From the NCBI RefSeq assembly GCF_900104895.1, contig NZ_LT629742.1, positions 1,116,001 to 1,180,000 on the forward strand: DNA of 64,000 bases, written 5' to 3'. Positions 13,901 through 19,952 of this stretch are shown here, piece after piece. Made by a program: the position numbers and the translations under genes. The DNA is from Microterricola viridarii. Lineage in GTDB: Bacteria; Actinomycetota; Actinomycetes; Actinomycetales; Microbacteriaceae. Every line of letters starts with the position of its first letter. The stretch's first letter is position 1. Under the pieces are notes generated by a model that saw only the letters and a list, made by a program, of their open reading frames with translations, was not told the DNA's origin and made no database searches.

Positions 13901-14324
13901 GTTCTCGGTCGACGGCAAGCCGTTCGGCGCCCCGGTTGCGGTCGGCGGTGCGGCACCCGCCGCAGGTACCGCACCCCGCACGGTGGCGGATGCCGTCAGC
14001 GCCAGTCTCTCGACCGCGGACCTCGCCGTCGGTGACCGGGTGATCACGGCCAGCTACCTCGGTGACGGCTCCTTCGCCGCCGCCGACGCGAGCACCGCGA
14101 GCCACACGGTCAAGCCCCAGGCGCCGATCGACCCGATCAAGCCGATTGACCCGCTGGAGCCGATCGTGCCGGCCGCCCCCGTGAAGCCTGCCGCGCCGGC
14201 CAGCAGCCTGGCGACGACGGGTGTGCAGGGCTTCGACACGGCGATGGCAGCCGCCCTGCTGCTGTTGGCCGGGCTCGGAATGCTTGGCACCGGAGTGGTG
14301 CGCCTGCGCCGCCGCTCCGCCTAG
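10989..14324 (+). CDS. Secreted Gly-rich/Ig-like repeat protein with LAXTG wall anchor
   Basis: Predicted surface protein of 1111 residues. An N-terminal signal peptide (basic start, hydrophobic core around 29-48, AVAAA-type cleavage near 56) leads into a glycine/alanine-rich region around residues 85-295. About seven Ig-like repeats of roughly 95-115 residues follow (around 317-1040), each ending in a YSGDxxF- or YTGGDNY-like motif. A Pro/Lys spacer (IDPIKPIDPLEPIVP) precedes LATTG at 1074-1078, a membrane helix and the basic tail RLRRRSA. LAXTG is the signal used by class E sortases of actinobacteria. ATG 10989 is preferred over TTG 10956, which would add 11 residues before the basic signal start. 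Role likely adhesion or cell-surface architecture. Confidence 0.85.
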   Translation: MAIRAALVRAQKPISHSAGPARSRLRAPAAFVALSLALTGLSTTGALLQAEPAVAAAPEVTKEFRNAAGENWTVPAGVTSVTATVTGAAGGAGGGTEGAAGGAGGQATGTFTVSPGETLRIWGATAGGTGGIRAAGGSAGTGYSAGGAGGAGKDVPLSADDKWAGGGGGGSSAIARPGNAPLLVGAGGGGGGGASAGLVRCTPGAGGAAAAAGASATRNSQISTCGRGAGGAAGDAGGAAGAAGATGHHASNRDSSGAGGGGGGLLGGAGGTTVFGANGAGGGGGGGTNHIADGVTAPAPALASLGAGTVVLRFTPSYMTSTALSASPASTVVGAPIDFTATVTGQGGVDAPLAGTVALFGAGSVPIGDAVALSGTTASFPAVVLPIGTHTITARFSPSADSAYRESSSIDYEVTVAQGSTTTELDVSPAPAEFGESVTATITVSPVAPADALLDGTVELRTADDTLIESVAVDSSGIATIVFMPSDFTASDFTSTGLETLKLTAFYSGNGSFTHSESVESDLGVVKSQSLLALSQSIETSVWGENVTLTAEISAARDAAVANRMAAVGTEPTGTVTFYAGGVVLDEAAVVGGLAEIDIDDLEVGLHELSASYSGDTYFTASAFPVGDEGDGLRHEVELAETDTTLAAIGAPLVGQAITLSADVSVRPNGAGTPTGSVVFTVDGIPLTATAFANGTATLEHAFWTVGTHTVSVAFTDGVHYDGSEDGPIEFRVEQAATDLALASDVSPAVFGQAVTVSATLGVVAPGAGVPDGEIEFELDGAPFATVPVSAGVATLPLGALPVGSYELSAAYTGGDNYAGSGASLTITVEHAATAISLTADSAESTFGQPLTLRAALSVVAPGAGIPTGSIAFRADGEEIAFATLNADGSVDALTLPEALAVGDRQITAHYAGDASFAASDAEALAHTVLLAPVSIALDVPAESVSEQSTSFTATVQPETSTGHVPSGFVQFSVDGKPFGAPVAVGGAAPAAGTAPRTVADAVSASLSTADLAVGDRVITASYLGDGSFAAADASTASHTVKPQAPIDPIKPIDPLEPIVPAAPVKPAAPASSLATTGVQGFDTAMAAALLLLAGLGMLGTGVVRLRRRSA

Positions 14325-14357
14325 ACCGGGGGAACAGAGACCGGGGGGAACACAGCA

Positions 14358-14388
14358 GGAGGGGCCCGCGCATCGCGCGGGCTCCTCC
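14358..14388 (+). terminator. Hairpin terminator after the surface-protein gene
   Basis: Arms 14358-14371 and 14375-14388 pair over 14 bases (one G-T pair) around a three-base loop, 33 bases after the stop codon. Confidence 0.75.
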
Positions 14389-14432
14389 GTGTGGTCTCCC
14401 GCTCCCGCCCACCCCACCCCAAGACCCCGCGC

Positions 14433-14493
14433 GACGCCACTTCGGCACATCCTGCGCCAGCCCGAATGGCGCAGGCCATGCCGAAGTGGCGTC
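14433..14493. repeat. Long imperfect palindrome, copy A
   Basis: Two 27-base arms (14433-14459 and 14467-14493) are complementary except for three central bases, with a seven-base loop. The outer part reads GACGCCACTTCGGCA and the inner part CCTGCGCCA. A second, diverged copy with the same outer and inner blocks lies at 15646-15708. The two copies bracket the gene at 14552-15529. The stem is too long for an ordinary terminator. Confidence 0.8.
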
Positions 14494-14551
14494 ACCCGGC
14501 ACCGCGCGGGGCGGCGGCACCGGTGCTCGTCCGGCGCAGTGGCAGCAGCGT

Positions 14552-15529
14552 CTACTGCGTGCGCCACGGCCGCCGGGTGACGGGCAGGCCGGCCTCACGC
14601 AGGATCGCCCGCAGAAGCGCGGACTCCCGCGCCTCCCGCCAATCCCACCGGCCGCAATTCCATCGCGTGGCCGCTCGGACGGCGTTCTCGCGCTTCTTCT
14701 CCTCCACCACGATGTGTGCCGCCGGGCGGGTGTCGCCGCCGCTCACGGCGTTGCCGAGATACTTGCCGTCGCCGTCCGCCTCTCCCCACACGCCGTACTC
14801 CGGCCAGGCGAAATCGAGCCACACGATGCGCCCCGCACGCGGCAACTGCACGGGCAGTTGGAGCACCGGCTCCGGGAAGCCGAGATCCTCCAGCTGCACG
14901 CGGCTGAGCGTCTCCAACGGGCTGTCCGCGAGGTGGCTGCAACGCTCGAGCACGACCCGCACCCGTCGGCTGCCGCTGAACGGCAGCCGACGCTCGAAAG
15001 CGGAGAGGAGCTCCGCCCTCGTGCACAGCGCAACCGCGGCGCCGAACCGCGGCGTGTGCAGCGCGGCATCCACCATGCACAGCGCGGCGGCGAAGGGGAG
15101 CGTGCGCGCGACGTCGACGAGGGTGTCGGGCAACGACGTCATGATCAGGCCGTTGTGCTCGACGATCTCCACAGCGTCGCGGCGCGAGAACTCCACCACC
15201 GCGTTGCGTCGTCGGCCCGATGCGGACTGCGCCAGGAGGAAGATATCGTTCGGGATTGCGTCCAGCACGGGAAGGCCCCAGAACACGGCAGCGGTGAACC
15301 CGGCGAAGATGGGCCGTCGACGTTGCGCCGCCGCGGCGAGAGCGTTCGCGCGATACCGCGCGACGGCGCTCATCTTCGCCAGCTCCTCCCGCGGCAGGTA
15401 GGCGCCGCGGCGCACCGGAATGAGCTGCCGTGAGTCGCGGGCCGTCACGAAGCGGCTGTGCATGCCGAGGGCCTCGGCGTCTCGGGCGAGCCGAAGGCCG
15501 CCGGCGGCGACGGGGAGATCAGCAGTCAT
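14552..15529 (-). CDS. AbiEi-like N-terminal domain protein with DUF559/Vsr-like nuclease region
   Basis: Protein of 325 residues, not confidently named. The first 50 residues resemble the AbiEi antitoxin-type winged-helix start (HSRFVTARDSRQLIPVRRGAYLP). The C-terminal third has the look of a DUF559/Vsr-like PD-(D/E)xK nuclease: LDFAWPEYGVWGEADGDGKY, then VVEEKKRENAVRAATRWN and a WDW motif, giving spaced Asp, Glu and Lys residues. Such proteins are common and variable in Microbacteriaceae; their function is unproven. The ATG at 15527-15529 is the only sensible start and has no clear ribosome site. The gene stands alone and is flanked on both sides by related palindromes. Confidence 0.65.
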   Translation of the reverse strand: MTADLPVAAGGLRLARDAEALGMHSRFVTARDSRQLIPVRRGAYLPREELAKMSAVARYRANALAAAAQRRRPIFAGFTAAVFWGLPVLDAIPNDIFLLAQSASGRRRNAVVEFSRRDAVEIVEHNGLIMTSLPDTLVDVARTLPFAAALCMVDAALHTPRFGAAVALCTRAELLSAFERRLPFSGSRRVRVVLERCSHLADSPLETLSRVQLEDLGFPEPVLQLPVQLPRAGRIVWLDFAWPEYGVWGEADGDGKYLGNAVSGGDTRPAAHIVVEEKKRENAVRAATRWNCGRWDWREARESALLRAILREAGLPVTRRPWRTQ

Positions 15530-15875
15530 GCGACCCAGTCTCAGTGTCCCCGGCCACGCTCACCCGTGTCGCGCCGGGGCTGTGCAGAACGCACCGTGCG
15601 CCCGCCACTGTGGAGGCTACGCGGCACGGCACCCCGGCCATCGTGCCACGCCACTTCGACACGTTCTGCGCCAGCTGAGCTGGCGCAGAACGCGCCGAAG
15701 TGGCGTGGGGCGCCCGCGCGCTGCCACGGGCCCCACTGGGCGTGCGGGCAACGGCCGCCAGCGGCATCCGCCCAGCAAAGGCGCGCTACGCTGGGGGTGT
15801 CGAGTTCGGCGCCGGTGGCGCCGCCGACTCCGCCGCCGATACACCGGCCACGACCCGCAGGACACGATTCACCAC
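15530..15875. other. Intergenic region between the nuclease-like gene and the SURF1 gene
   Basis: This 346-base stretch separates two divergent genes. It holds palindrome copy B (15646-15708) and otherwise GC-rich sequence with no supported gene. A TACGCT hexamer near 15788 could be a -10 element for the SURF1 gene. Open frames crossing it are extensions of downstream reading frames rather than genes. Confidence 0.5.
15646..15708. repeat. Long imperfect palindrome, copy B
   Basis: Two 28-base arms (15646-15673 and 15681-15708) with two mismatches. The seven-base centre GCTGAGC is itself nearly self-complementary, so the element is almost fully palindromic. Its outer block ACGCCACTTCG and inner block CTGCGCCA match copy A at 14433-14493. 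Confidence 0.8.
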
Positions 15876-16682
15876 ATGCTCTCGATCATGCTGCGCCCTC
15901 GCTGGGTTCTCGCTCTTCTCGGCGCGCTCGCCGTCGCCGCCGTCTTCGCCGTGCTCGGACAGTGGCAGATCGCGCGCGCGGTCGACGCCGGGCAGACCGC
16001 CGATCGCTCCACCGAGATCGTGCAGCCGCTCGCCGAGATCGCTGGCCCCGATGCCCCGATCAAGCAGAGCGCGACCGGCCAGATGGTCTCCGTCGACGGG
16101 CGCTACGTCGTCGGCGACGAGCAGATCATCAGCGGCCGCCTGAACGGCGGCACCGCCGGGTTCTGGGTCGTCAGCCACTTCCAGATCGATGCAGCGGGCG
16201 AGCCCGCGATCCCCGTCGCCCGCGGCTGGGCCGCCGACGCCGAGACCGCCGAGGCCGTCGCCGCCGAGCTCGCCGAGCAGGACGCCTCCGGGGAGAGCGT
16301 CACGCTGACCGGTCGCCTGCTGCCGACCGAGGGGCCGGAGTTCCCCACCGATGCCGCCAGCGCGCGCGTGATGCGCGCCCTTGCCGTTTCCGCGCTGATC
16401 AACCTCTGGGCCGACTTCGACAACCGCTCGGTGTACTCGGCCTACATCGTCTCGGCCGAGCCGCCGGCCGGGCTCGTCCAGATCGACTCCCCGGAGCCCA
16501 ACCCCGAGGTCGAGCTGAACTGGCTGAACATCTTCTACGCCGTCGAATGGGCCGTGTTCGCGGGCTTCGCCGTGTTCCTCTGGTACCGCCTGGTGCGCGA
16601 CCAGTGGGAGCGCGAACGCGAAGAAGCCGAGGACGATGCCGCCGCCGCATCCGCTGGCGAATCGCTCAGCAACCGCGCGTAG
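15876..16682 (+). CDS. SURF1-family cytochrome oxidase biogenesis protein
   Basis: Membrane protein of 268 residues with the SURF1 architecture. It has an N-terminal transmembrane helix (around 8-31, LRPRWVLALLGALAVAAVFAVL), a large extracytoplasmic domain with GQWQIARA and PVARGW motifs, and a C-terminal helix (around 225-245, WAVFAGFAVFLWYRL). SURF1 proteins help assemble haem-copper cytochrome oxidase. Start codons at 15876 and 15888 are both possible; neither has a strong ribosome site. It is followed nine bases later by the DUF3817 gene and then guaA, so the three may be co-transcribed. Confidence 0.85.
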   Translation: MLSIMLRPRWVLALLGALAVAAVFAVLGQWQIARAVDAGQTADRSTEIVQPLAEIAGPDAPIKQSATGQMVSVDGRYVVGDEQIISGRLNGGTAGFWVVSHFQIDAAGEPAIPVARGWAADAETAEAVAAELAEQDASGESVTLTGRLLPTEGPEFPTDAASARVMRALAVSALINLWADFDNRSVYSAYIVSAEPPAGLVQIDSPEPNPEVELNWLNIFYAVEWAVFAGFAVFLWYRLVRDQWEREREEAEDDAAAASAGESLSNRA

Positions 16683-16691
16683 ACTAGTCCC

Positions 16692-17156
16692 ATGCCCCTC
16701 GAGCCGAAACCCGCTGTATTCCCGCGCATTCGGAAGGCCGTCACGTTCTACAAGATCACCTCGGTGATCACCGGTGTCATGCTGCTGCTGCTGTGCGCAG
16801 AGATGATCCTGAAGTACGCCTTCCACCTCGAACTGTACGGATTCGGCAACGCCGGCTTCCTGCACTTCGCCCCGATGATCGAGACCGCCACCGGCTGGGA
16901 GTCCACCGGCGACGGCGCGAACCTGTCCACGGGCATCCTCATCGCGCACGGCTGGTTCTACGTCGTCTACCTCTTCGCCTGCTTCCAGCTGTGGAGCCTG
17001 ATGCGGTGGCTCTTCCCCAAGTTCTTGTTGCTCGCCCTCGGCGGCATCATCCCCCTGCTGTCCTTCTTCCTCGAGGTGCGCGTTGCACGCGAGGTGGAAA
17101 CCTACCTGGCCACCCGTGAAGCGGCGGCCACCGACCCCGTGGAGGCACACGCGTGA
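16692..17156 (+). CDS. DUF3817 family membrane protein
   Basis: Small integral membrane protein of 154 residues with three to four hydrophobic helices (around 20-40, 78-100, 105-125). The N-terminal [24 protein letters not shown] and the [10 protein letters not shown] segment fit the DUF3817 family, which in actinobacteria usually sits next to guaA. Molecular function is unknown. The stop overlaps the GTG start of guaA by four bases, implying translational coupling. Confidence 0.85.
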
Positions 17157-18754
17157 CCGACCCCGTCCCCCCTGCCGACGCGCACACCGCGCAGCGGCCC
17201 GTCCTGGTCGTCGACTTCGGCGCCCAGTACGCGCAGCTGATCGCACGACGCGTGCGCGAGGCATCCGTCTACTCGGAGATCGTCTCGCACGCGATCACCG
17301 CCGATGAGGTTGTGGCCAAGAACCCGATCGGCATCGTTCTCTCCGGTGGGCCGTCCTCGGTCTACGAAGAGGGCGCGCCGCAGTTCGACCCGGCCATCTT
17401 CGAGCTCGGCGTGCCCGTGCTCGGCATCTGCTACGGCTTCCAGGTCATGGCGACCGCCCTCGGCGGCGAGGTTGCACAGACCGGCAACCGCGAGTACGGT
17501 GCCACCCCGGTGACGGTCACGGATGCCACCGGCAACGTGCTCCTCGCCGAGCAGCCGACCGAGCAGACGGTCTGGATGAGCCACGGCGACTCCGTGTCGA
17601 AGGCGCCGGAGGGCTTCACCGTCCTCGCCTCGACAGAGTCGACCCCCGTCGCCGCATTCGCCAACGACGAGAAGCGCCTCTACGGCGTGCAGTGGCACCC
17701 CGAGGTCAAGCACTCCGAGCACGGCCAGCACGTGCTGGAGAGCTTCCTGCACCGGGCCGCCGGCATCGCCGCGGACTGGAACAGCGGCAACGTCATCGCC
17801 GAGCAGGTCGCCAAGATCCAGGCGCAGGTCGGCTCCGGCCGCGTCATCTGCGGCCTCTCCGGCGGAGTCGACTCCGCCGTGGCCGCCGCCATCGTGCATA
17901 AGGCCGTCGGCGACCAGCTCGTCTGCATCTTCGTCGACCACGGCCTGCTGCGCCAGGACGAGCGCCGCCAGGTCGAGGAGGACTACGTCGCCTCCACCGG
18001 TGTGCGCCTCGTCACGATCGACGCCCGCGAGCAGTTCCTGAACGCCCTGGCCGGAGTCAGCGACCCCGAGACCAAGCGCAAGATCATCGGCCGCGAGTTC
18101 ATCCGCAGCTTCGAGCAGGCCGAGCGCGACCTCGTCGCCGAGGCCAGCGCCGACGGCGAGCCGATCCGTTTCCTCGTGCAGGGCACCCTGTACCCGGATG
18201 TCGTCGAGTCCGGCGGCGGAAGCGGCACCGCGAACATCAAGAGCCACCACAACGTGGGCGGTCTGCCGGAGGACCTGCAGTTTGAGCTCGTCGAGCCGCT
18301 GCGCACCCTCTTCAAGGACGAGGTGCGCGCCATCGGCCGCGAGCTCGGCCTGCCCGAGGTCATCGTGGGACGCCAGCCGTTCCCCGGCCCCGGCCTCGGC
18401 ATCCGCATCGTCGGTGAGGTCACGGAAGAGCGCCTCGAGCTGCTGCGCAAGGCCGACGCCATCGCGCGCGCCGAGCTGACCGCCGCCGGCCTCGACAACG
18501 AGATCTGGCAGTGCCCGGTCGTGCTGCTCGCCGATGTGCGCTCCGTGGGCGTGCAGGGCGACGGCCGCACCTACGGTCACCCGATCGTGCTGCGCCCGGT
18601 GTCCTCCGAGGACGCGATGACCGCCGACTGGACCCGCCTGCCGTACGACGTGCTGGCGAAGATCTCGAACCGCATCACGAACGAGGTGGACGGCGTCAAC
18701 CGCGTCGTGCTCGACGTCACGAGCAAGCCGCCGGGAACCATCGAATGGGAGTAG
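17153..18754 (+). CDS. guaA: GMP synthase, glutamine-hydrolysing
   Basis: Converts XMP, ATP and glutamine to GMP, the last step of guanine nucleotide synthesis. It is 533 residues and full length. The class I glutamine amidotransferase domain carries the nucleophile Cys93 in GICYGFQ, with the His/Glu partner in [11 protein letters not shown]. The ATP-pyrophosphatase domain has the SGGVDSA P-loop, and the C-terminal dimerisation/XMP-binding region ends [13 protein letters not shown]...KPPGTIEWE. The GTG start at 17153 overlaps the previous gene. A group of inverted repeats follows the stop. Confidence 0.97.
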
Positions 18755-18756
18755 GC

Positions 18757-18796
18757 GTTTGAGCTGAGCGCGGGCATTTCGCTCCTCAGCTCAAAC
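18757..18796 (+). terminator. Inverted repeat after guaA, probable terminator
   Basis: Perfect 12-base arms GTTTGAGCTGAG (18757-18768) and CTCAGCTCAAAC (18785-18796) enclose a 16-base loop, beginning three bases after the guaA stop. It is the first of four hairpins in this 338-base gap. Confidence 0.6.
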
Positions 18797-18799
18797 ACT

Positions 18800-18873
18800 G
18801 GCACAGAATGCCGGACCCCGCTGAACCGCATCGTGCATGCGAGTTCGGTGTGAGGGGTCCGGCCTTCTGTGTC
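18800..18873. repeat. Large inverted repeat in the guaA downstream gap
   Basis: Twenty-base arms at 18800-18819 and 18854-18873 match except for two positions. The interior contains further complementary blocks (GAACCGCAT/ATGCGAGTTC-like), so an extended cruciform is possible. No coding function seen. Confidence 0.65.
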
Positions 18874-18936
18874 ATAACGCGATACCCCGCGGGCCGGCCT
18901 GATCGCGCCACCCCGGCATCCGCCTCGGCTTCAGCC

Positions 18937-19004
18937 TCGCGGCCCTCGGTATGTCTCGCGGCCCGTGGCATAGCGGGGGCCGCGAGACACACCGAGGGCC
19001 GCGA
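18937..19004. repeat. Long near-perfect inverted repeat
   Basis: Arms of 28 bases (18937-18964 and 18977-19004) pair with a single mismatch around a 12-base loop. The arms contain CTCGCGGCCCTCGG. The stem is longer than a normal terminator and is of the same general kind as the palindromes around 14.4 and 15.7 kb, although the sequence differs. Confidence 0.7.
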
Positions 19005-19040
19005 CGGGCCGGATGCCGCCGGGCAGTGCCCCGGGAACGC

Positions 19041-19070
19041 GGAAGGGCCGCCCTTCCGGGCGGCCCTTCC
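19041..19070 (-). terminator. Hairpin terminator for the Bax-inhibitor-like gene
   Basis: Perfect 13-base arms (19041-19053 and 19058-19070) with a four-base loop, located 23 bases beyond the stop of the minus-strand gene. It could act in both directions. Confidence 0.75.
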
Positions 19071-19092
19071 GTGAAGCGGTGTCAGCGTGCGA

Positions 19093-19896
19093 CTAGTCGC
19101 GCGCGATCGCGAACATGCGCAGGATCTCCAGGTACAGCCAGATGACGGTGACCATGATGCCGAAGGCGCCGGTCCAGCCGTACTTGCGCGGTGCGCGATT
19201 CTTGACGCCCTTCTGGATGAAGTCGAAGTCGAGCACGAGCGAGTACGCGGCCATGATGACGACGAGGACGCCGAGCACGAGGCCGATCGGGATTCCGGTG
19301 TTGAAGAGGTCATCGCCGCGGAGGCCCCACGGGTTGCTGACCGCGCCGGTCATCGTCAGCACGACGTTGAGGAGCGAGAACACGAGGTAGCCGACCATGG
19401 CGATCAGGAACACCTTGGTGGCCTTCTTGGAGGCGCGGATCTTGCCGCTGGCGAAGAGGGCGAGCGTCACGCCGACGACGGCGAGGGTGGCCAGCACCGC
19501 CTGCAGCACGATTCCGTCAAACTGCGTCTCGTAGAACATCGAGATCGCGCCGACGAACACGCCCTGCGCCGCCGCGTAGGCGAGGATCAGGGCCGGCGAC
19601 GGCTCCTTCTTGAAGATGTTGACGAGTGCCAGGACGAAGCCGATGATGCCGGCAATCGCGAAGAGGAACGGCATCGTCGTGGCGGTCACCCAGCCGAGCA
19701 TGGCACCGATCACGAGCACGCCGAAGGACAGCGCGGTCTTCACGACGGTGTCTTCGACCGTCATCCGGTCGGTCTCGCCGGCACCGGCGGTGGGCCGGTT
19801 GTAGATGTCCTGCAGCTCCTCGACCGAGACGGCGTTGGAGACGGAGGTGTTGCCGGTGAAGGCTGGGCTGCGGAATGCGGGGTTCTCGAGTGCCAT
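19093..19896 (-). CDS. Bax inhibitor-1/YccA family membrane protein
   Basis: Integral membrane protein of 267 residues with about seven transmembrane helices. It opens MALENPAFRSPAF, a start typical of actinobacterial BI-1 proteins, followed by a soluble N-terminal tail of about 55 residues. The C-terminal region SLVLDFDFIQKGVKNRAPRKYGW with paired Asp residues matches the YccA/BI-1 pH-sensor region. Family members are proposed calcium-leak channels; the cellular role in bacteria is not established. The ATG at 19894-19896 is preferred over an upstream in-frame start that would add only non-conserved residues. Confidence 0.9.
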   Translation of the reverse strand: MALENPAFRSPAFTGNTSVSNAVSVEELQDIYNRPTAGAGETDRMTVEDTVVKTALSFGVLVIGAMLGWVTATTMPFLFAIAGIIGFVLALVNIFKKEPSPALILAYAAAQGVFVGAISMFYETQFDGIVLQAVLATLAVVGVTLALFASGKIRASKKATKVFLIAMVGYLVFSLLNVVLTMTGAVSNPWGLRGDDLFNTGIPIGLVLGVLVVIMAAYSLVLDFDFIQKGVKNRAPRKYGWTGAFGIMVTVIWLYLEILRMFAIARD

Positions 19897-19952
19897 GGGA
19901 TCCTCTGGGGCTCGGGGCGAAGCGCACACGACGAGCTCGCCACGTGCGGGTG

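Follow-up and report, generated by a model that had tools for sequence, protein, structure and literature searches.

An AbiEi/Vsr-like nuclease gene family of Actinomycetota bracketed by matching palindromes: candidate REPtron-like units

In the window, by which we mean the whole stretch of 64,000 nucleotides of Microterricola viridarii DNA that was analysed (part of the 3.84 Mb chromosome called G000 below), a gene that appears to join an AbiEi-like half to a nuclease half lies between two long palindromes that match one another. Gene and palindromes are associated: palindromes bracket members of this gene family, match left and right of a gene, share one geometry across the family, are for some types dispersed over the chromosome and vary in step on their two arms. 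As RAYT/REP units show the same organisation and the same covariation of arms, with an unrelated enzyme (PMC2817692 and PMC3733652, in the parts available), we read these genes as REPtron-like units. That the gene and its two palindromes make up such a unit, its unrelated nuclease binding palindromes of about 60 bp and spreading them, seems to us reasonably probable. The whole seems to be a DNA element, selfish or domesticated, of a kind not described so far; no report of this gene-palindrome association was found in the open-access papers searched, a scope that leaves aside most subscription papers and all bioRxiv preprints.

The window gene (14552-15529, minus strand) opens with ATG and encodes 325 residues. 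Downstream, 58 bp past the stop codon, a palindrome of A type built as 27-7-27 bp occupies positions 14433-14493 (arms 14433-14459 and 14467-14493); upstream, 116 bp 5' of the start codon, another palindrome of A type occupies 15646-15708, this one built as 31-1-31 bp with arms (15646-15676 and 15678-15708) that are 94% complementary. An earlier note on this DNA had described two related long palindromes bracketing one stand-alone gene, and its description is confirmed, the two palindromes together forming an 80-nt direct repeat of 74% identity. The half-palindrome pattern has four matches in the window, as against a mean of 0.03 and never four in shuffled sequences, and an unbiased scan yielded six palindromes (score at least 34), among which those of the window gene are the sole matched pair lying 0.5-2.2 kb apart. 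Rfam returned nothing above its gathering score for positions 14000-19500, and the microRNA matches scoring below it were set aside as chance hairpins. The four neighbours that were scanned correspond to Big_3_5 (an Ig-repeat surface protein), SURF1, DUF3817 and LuxR/AAA (a LuxR-type regulator); no AbiEii nucleotidyltransferase toxin or other partner gene is present among these four.

An AlphaFold2 model of the protein, built from a 40-sequence alignment, has a mean pLDDT of 91.5 and a pTM of 0.88. In this predicted structure, residues 1-198 (14936-15529, minus strand) take up an AbiEi antitoxin-like fold, expected to be the DNA-binding part (6y8q: Z 10.8, rmsd 5.8 over 175), and residues 202-318 (14576-14926, minus strand) a Vsr/EDxHD-like nuclease fold, matching the homing endonuclease I-Bth0305I (3r3p: Z 10.2, rmsd 3.0 over 95) and Vsr (1cw0: Z 8.7). 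The fold assignment rests on these Z-scores, since the Foldseek E-values are weaker: 3.9e-3 at best for AbiEi, with a probability of 0.99-1.00, and 5.9 and 6.2 for I-Bth0305I and Vsr. Residues E206, D239, E250, D252 and K256 are invariant in 27 aligned homologues; among 40, E206 and K256 are still invariant and the other three are conserved at 90% or more. We take these five to be catalytic on the pattern of PD-(D/E)XK enzymes. The protein, as modelled, looks like an AbiEi-like half joined to a Vsr/EDxHD-like nuclease half with conserved putative active-site residues; no alignment column with 90% conservation or more is a histidine, among either the 27 or the 40 homologues, and so it has no HUH motif. 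The name AbiEi/DUF559-like given to the gene by the earlier note holds in substance, since the predicted structure resembles those of AbiEi and of Vsr/EDxHD proteins, although no DUF559 model was matched. Taken alone, the window protein matched no Pfam or NCBIfam model, and a sequence profile search of solved structures found nothing; the PADLOC AbiEi model matches it weakly (1.5e-5). AbiEi and REase names alone came up when Pfam was run on the 40 aligned members, 16 of which match AbiEi_4 (PF13338) and two MTES_1575 REase (PF18741) at E 0.01, a likeness drawn from family names alone, the window protein itself matching neither.

Homologues are found in 44 of 59 related genomes, with up to nine per genome, and in a phylum search of 149 sampled Actinomycetota genomes, 50 had matches at E 1e-10, with up to 14 matches in a genome and at most 15 candidates scored in each. 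The 50,697 phage records gave zero matches, and 72,556 plasmid records one weak match. A 32% homologue in a record of Sporosarcina beigongshangi (Bacillota; locus L188), whose gene has a strong palindrome 327 bp away, may reflect either transfer or contamination. Several members coexist in G000, including the window gene (gene A), its 63% paralogue at 2272090 (gene B) and a gene of another palindrome type, C, at G000:C1:3683501-3684490. Between G000 and the related genome G004, dN/dS is 0.11 for gene A, 0.24 for B and 0.20 for C, and the three genes are under purifying selection.

The association was measured on 146 fetched loci, consisting of the better matches together with 56 named ones, which became 141 when five duplicates were dropped; 135 had enough flank for a palindrome test and 134 for a flank-against-flank test, close orthologues being kept in both. 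Self-complementarity was scored within 350 bp of the gene, and stretches of the same loci lying 900 bp or more from it served as controls. A palindrome stands to the left in 79 of the 135 loci, to the right in 76, on both sides in 55 and on at least one side in 100, against 15 of 632 controls; 35 loci have none on either side. The sequence of the palindrome differs from gene to gene and is alike to the left and right of each: in the 55 two-sided loci the left/right match score has a median of 47, versus 8 for 2970 cross pairs, and 53 of them exceed the 99th percentile of between-gene pairs. When close relatives were collapsed to 95 representatives, 53 kept a left palindrome, 51 a right one and 35 both, 34 of these 35 matching above the between-locus 99th percentile.

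Flanks compared directly, with no requirement for a palindrome, share repeats (score at least 25) in 102/134 loci versus 40/1598 cross-locus pairs, and in 69/94 collapsed representatives; shifted control intervals gave 12/162, but these start just 600 bp away and could overlap genuine palindromes. Thresholds of 25, 28 and 34 were picked after the scores were known, and at the 99th percentile of the null (33) the count is 86/134. Because several flank matches (L026, L031, L043, L044 and L093) look like plain inverted duplications, the figure of 102/134 overstates palindromes and 55/135 is the firmer one. Both matched segments are palindromic over their whole aligned length in 15 of the 102, a low count explained by alignments that overrun the palindromes.

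Further loci behave alike. Those of the phylum search have matching flanks in 16/26 cases against 1/650 cross pairs, or 14/24 among fresh loci (three of 29 were dropped as short, and L280 and L281 repeat L036 and L095). A subsequent set gave 12/20 against 2/380, made up of 2/2 further G000 paralogues and 10/18 loci of two class-level genomes, or 11/18 among fresh loci (L311 and L323 repeat L290 and L292); one locus scored 38 as L292 and 19 as L323, so the choice of gene boundary matters. All nine G000 members examined have matching flanks, with scores of 41-69 for the seven earlier ones (L018, L049, L069 and L086-L089), and bracketing extends to family members less than 30% identical. Starting from palindromes instead of genes, a scan of 400 kb of genome G001 found 18 palindromes with one matched pair 0.5-2.2 kb apart, round the family gene L092, which already belonged to the locus set. 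Six long stretches contain three such pairs in all, each holding a family gene, and a fourth family gene in these stretches, in genome G003, is without one. The upstream repeat lies at a median of 134 bp before the gene (quartiles 104-196) and the downstream copy at a median of 30 bp after it. As an aside, L083, L095 and L211 have in common an upstream neighbour ending ...GGCCGCTTCGGCTGA, which may mark orthologous sites or a preferred neighbour.

Different in sequence, the palindromes share a design. The same short motif recurs within an arm at a best offset of exactly 19 bp in 37/96 arms, where shuffled arms lead one to expect 1.2, and at 20 bp in 6/96 (1.0 expected); the A/B type has the offset of 20, with boxes TGCGCCA and YGCGCCA. 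Two boxes per arm make four per palindrome. Palindromes of different loci are alike only if the proteins are close: the fraction alike is 0.00 below 1.4 score units per residue and reaches 0.68 and 1.00 in the two top bins of protein similarity. Overall, palindrome similarity correlates weakly with protein similarity (Mantel rho 0.136), with 0/500 permutations as high. Across 26 distinct A/B palindromes of G000, which start TGCGCCA, CGCGCCA, GACGCCA and similar (the C type starts TCGCGGC), CGCCA at positions 3-7 is invariant and positions 22-26 nearly so, and the spacer between them varies in step on both arms. At the 13 variable pairs the complementary fraction is 0.787 against 0.615 expected, with a maximum of 0.672 in 2000 shuffles and of 0.698 in a control swapping whole arms. 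The suspicion of compensatory change in the arms, voiced when the locus was first remarked upon, is borne out in these 26 copies, where variable positions stay complementary. Hairpin-templated correction can alter both arms in one event, and the covariation could come from this process or from selection for the palindrome.

Some types have spread far beyond their genes. Matches to the A/B patterns, compared with a reversed control, number 62+55 versus 14+16 in G000, 54+53 versus 11+15 in G004, 32+29 versus 8+17 in G001, 21+25 versus 16+13 in G003 and 17+12 versus 9+18 in G002. G000 has at least 34 complete A/B palindromes, their arms always 34 bp apart, including arrays of which the longest holds four complete copies and an imperfect one. 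The C type has at least 23 complete copies there, the arms always 42 bp apart. One of these copies, a solo palindrome, is in the window, at 18937-19004, between the convergent genes 17153-18754 (plus strand) and 19093-19929 (minus strand). C-type arms number 50 in G000, 57 in G004 and 23 in G001, the three carriers of a C gene with bracketing palindromes of C type, against 3-4 in the control and at most six in each of 28 other genomes searched; G002 has a 59% relative of the C gene, with diverged flanks. Scattering of palindromes with no tie to the gene family, which would have spoken against a common unit, is therefore not what the C type displays, although the A/B link is less clean. Of 30 genomes, the one with the highest A/B count (G029, 52 versus 23 in the control) carries a 54% homologue; A/B arms are also raised in G012 (47 versus 23), G024 (38 versus 20) and G026 (24 versus 6), which have no close A/B gene, and weakly raised in G003 (46 versus 29) despite an A/B-like gene. 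The dispersal expected of a further type, D, in G000 and G004 did not materialise, the type being essentially confined there to the bracketing pair; elsewhere it is seen as a few solo copies in G002 and one palindrome in G003 near another family gene.

As for their surroundings, of 50 stretches of G000 taken round dispersed palindromes, some of them overlapping, three contain a family gene or remnant, all at the C gene. Twenty selected G000 stretches hold 30 palindromes, array copies being counted singly; the genes on either side of these are convergent in 10 cases, parallel in 12 and divergent in none; seven lie inside crude open reading frames and one lacks a left gene. Two side observations concern other repeats: the spacers of the palindrome array at L246:2080-3074 (G000:C1:1677079-1678073) carry repeated GTCGCAGCG-like units, and L148 (G001), L152 (G002) and L158 (G003) contain a repeat, GGTTGAGCTTGTCGAAACC with GGCTTCGGTCGCTGGCGCTCCCTCGAGCC, that is likewise dispersed between genes but does not resemble the palindromes studied here.

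Comparison with relatives shows gene and A/B palindromes missing together at two sites of G002. At site A, G002 is without gene and palindrome, and in G001 and G003 the place is taken by another gene. Site B is empty in G002, with 74 bp in place of 1987 in G000, which does not amount to a precise empty site, and the gap there contains a solo palindrome resembling that of another family; G001 retains one near-intact palindrome beside a gene remnant, and G003 has a syntenic homologue. That gene and palindromes form one unit, as the earlier note proposed, is strongly supported by a pairing that recurs family-wide and by the joint absence of the gene and its A/B palindromes at these two G002 sites. 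The solo palindrome at 18937-19004 is present in G004 and absent from the corresponding gaps of G001-G003. Six of 12 compared stretches at G000 solo sites were read against G001: three C-type palindromes are absent there and one is present, one gap has another palindrome type, and at one array a degraded copy alone was seen. Twelve of 20 G004 stretches have a counterpart among the compared G000 stretches, and in 11 of these 12 the complete A/B palindrome of G000 is matched by one in G004; one array differs, with two copies in G004 versus three in G000. The mobility suggested in that note may be inferred from dispersed copies, arrays and presence or absence, but no movement of palindromes was seen in these genome comparisons, and sites A and B, compared with G001-G003, gave no precise insertion boundary, clean empty site or target duplication. 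At the L243 site of the G001 stretch, and again at the B site in L334 (G002), one and the same gap has palindromes whose type changes from species to species, as if such gaps were landing spots. Apart from this, the window segment 34104-52031, about 18 kb, has no counterpart in the otherwise collinear G001 and is, to judge from this, a lineage-specific island.

Known systems help in understanding how such a unit might work. In REPtrons, which combine a RAYT with REP sequences (PMC2817692 and PMC3733652, as far as the accessible parts go), two palindromes likewise bracket the gene, the bracketing palindrome is also dispersed between genes and sometimes in arrays (here for the A/B and C types, hardly for D), arms vary yet stay complementary, and several gene-palindrome types share a genome. 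Unlike the REPtron enzyme, an HUH/Tyr transposase of IS200/IS605 type in the same parts of these sources, the protein here looks AbiEi-like and Vsr/EDxHD-like, its palindromes, about 60 bp long, repeat boxes within each arm and, in the A/B and C types inspected, lack a GTAG/GTGG head, and its family is found in Actinomycetota; the enzyme being unrelated, this is not a member of the RAYT/REP family. The N-terminal half recalls the type IV antitoxins AbiEi and Rv2827c, whose targets are 23-bp inverted repeats, two of them spaced by 3 bp for AbiEi and four for Rv2827c (PMC7319586, in the portion seen); compared with that portion, the window gene differs in having no adjoining toxin gene, a fused nuclease half, and palindromes that flank it on either side and in some types also occur elsewhere. 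The nuclease half shares its fold with Vsr and with I-Bth0305I, a dimer on nearly 60 bp (PMC3943268, in part), from which it is set apart by a stand-alone chromosomal gene, an AbiEi-like DNA-binding half and a presumed target that flanks the gene.

A protein with both folds, encoded between 60-bp palindromes, would most simply be one that binds and processes them. The idea, raised earlier, of palindromes serving the protein as recognition sites gains good indirect support from the locus-specific matching, the common geometry and an AbiEi fold described in the available part of PMC7319586 as binding 23-bp inverted repeats; these suggest binding, and we infer that cleavage and copying would go with it. 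The AbiEi-like half would recognise short boxes in the arms, GCGCCA-type for the window type and other boxes elsewhere in the family; some 60 bp would probably be covered by a dimer or a larger assembly, and nicking or cutting at the recognised palindrome would fall to the Vsr/EDxHD-like half. Repair or copying of the processed palindrome would then seed further copies, mostly in intergenic gaps, where they could outlast decay of the gene, and the two bracketing copies would tie the recognised sequence to the gene.

Other readings deserve to be weighed against this one. The protein might be nothing more than an autoregulating DNA-binding protein of AbiEi type, with the upstream palindrome as operator, the others being regulatory, nucleoid-binding or terminator sequences, and nothing moving. 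The upstream repeat, at its median of 134 bp before the gene, is suitably placed, and AbiEi and Rv2827c do bind inverted repeats in their own promoters (PMC7319586, in part); we nevertheless hold this unlikely, as a matched copy also stands just 3' of the gene (median 30 bp), none of 30 palindromes lies in a divergent, promoter-bearing gap when 10 lie in convergent ones, the putative active-site residues are invariant in 27 homologues, and copies are dispersed and arrayed. Convergent gaps might rather suggest ordinary bidirectional terminators, alike by chance, whose hairpins could stop transcription from either side; to this we give hardly any credence, considering that matched pairs concentrate round this gene family, that the arms contain internal 19-bp repeats, that the arm spacing is fixed in dozens of copies, and that Rfam had no match above its gathering score in window positions 14000-19500.

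The nuclease half leads to two further proposals. Its resemblance to the homing endonuclease I-Bth0305I, the remnant beside a near-intact palindrome in G001 and the absence of the unit from G002 would fit a homing or addiction unit, the nuclease cutting unit-less alleles, repair copying the gene with both palindromes, and solo palindromes being left over from decay. At least 34 complete A/B-type palindromes for two A/B genes, arrays devoid of genes, no precise empty site at the sites compared and a gene or remnant in just three of the 50 G000 stretches, at the C gene, leave it with a poor chance. Very unlikely, in our opinion, is a role in defence, where the nuclease would attack incoming DNA and the palindromes would be protected self sites or off-switches: AbiEi does belong to abortive-infection toxin-antitoxin systems (PMC7319586, in part), and the PADLOC match is to AbiEi, if weakly, but no partner was found among the four scanned neighbours, phage records had no match and plasmid records a single weak one, and a genome may hold up to 14 family matches.

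We come back to the REPtron-like unit. On its broadest form, that of a large family of chromosomal elements across Actinomycetota, each with an AbiEi-guided Vsr/EDxHD nuclease by which multi-box palindromes of about 60 bp, gene-specific in sequence and of one geometry, are recognised and propagated, our opinion is evenly balanced. If true, the REP/RAYT lifestyle would have been invented independently, bracketing of a nuclease by dispersed palindromes would have evolved more than once, and there would be a further chemistry for small palindromic repeats. Stray-looking antitoxin or endonuclease genes would belong to REP-like elements that form a class of their own, their enzyme having no kinship with RAYTs, and dispersed actinobacterial palindromes would have an origin. 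The family would also offer dozens of natural protein-target pairs, with long, differing and readable sites of common geometry, as a basis for working out and testing a recognition code.
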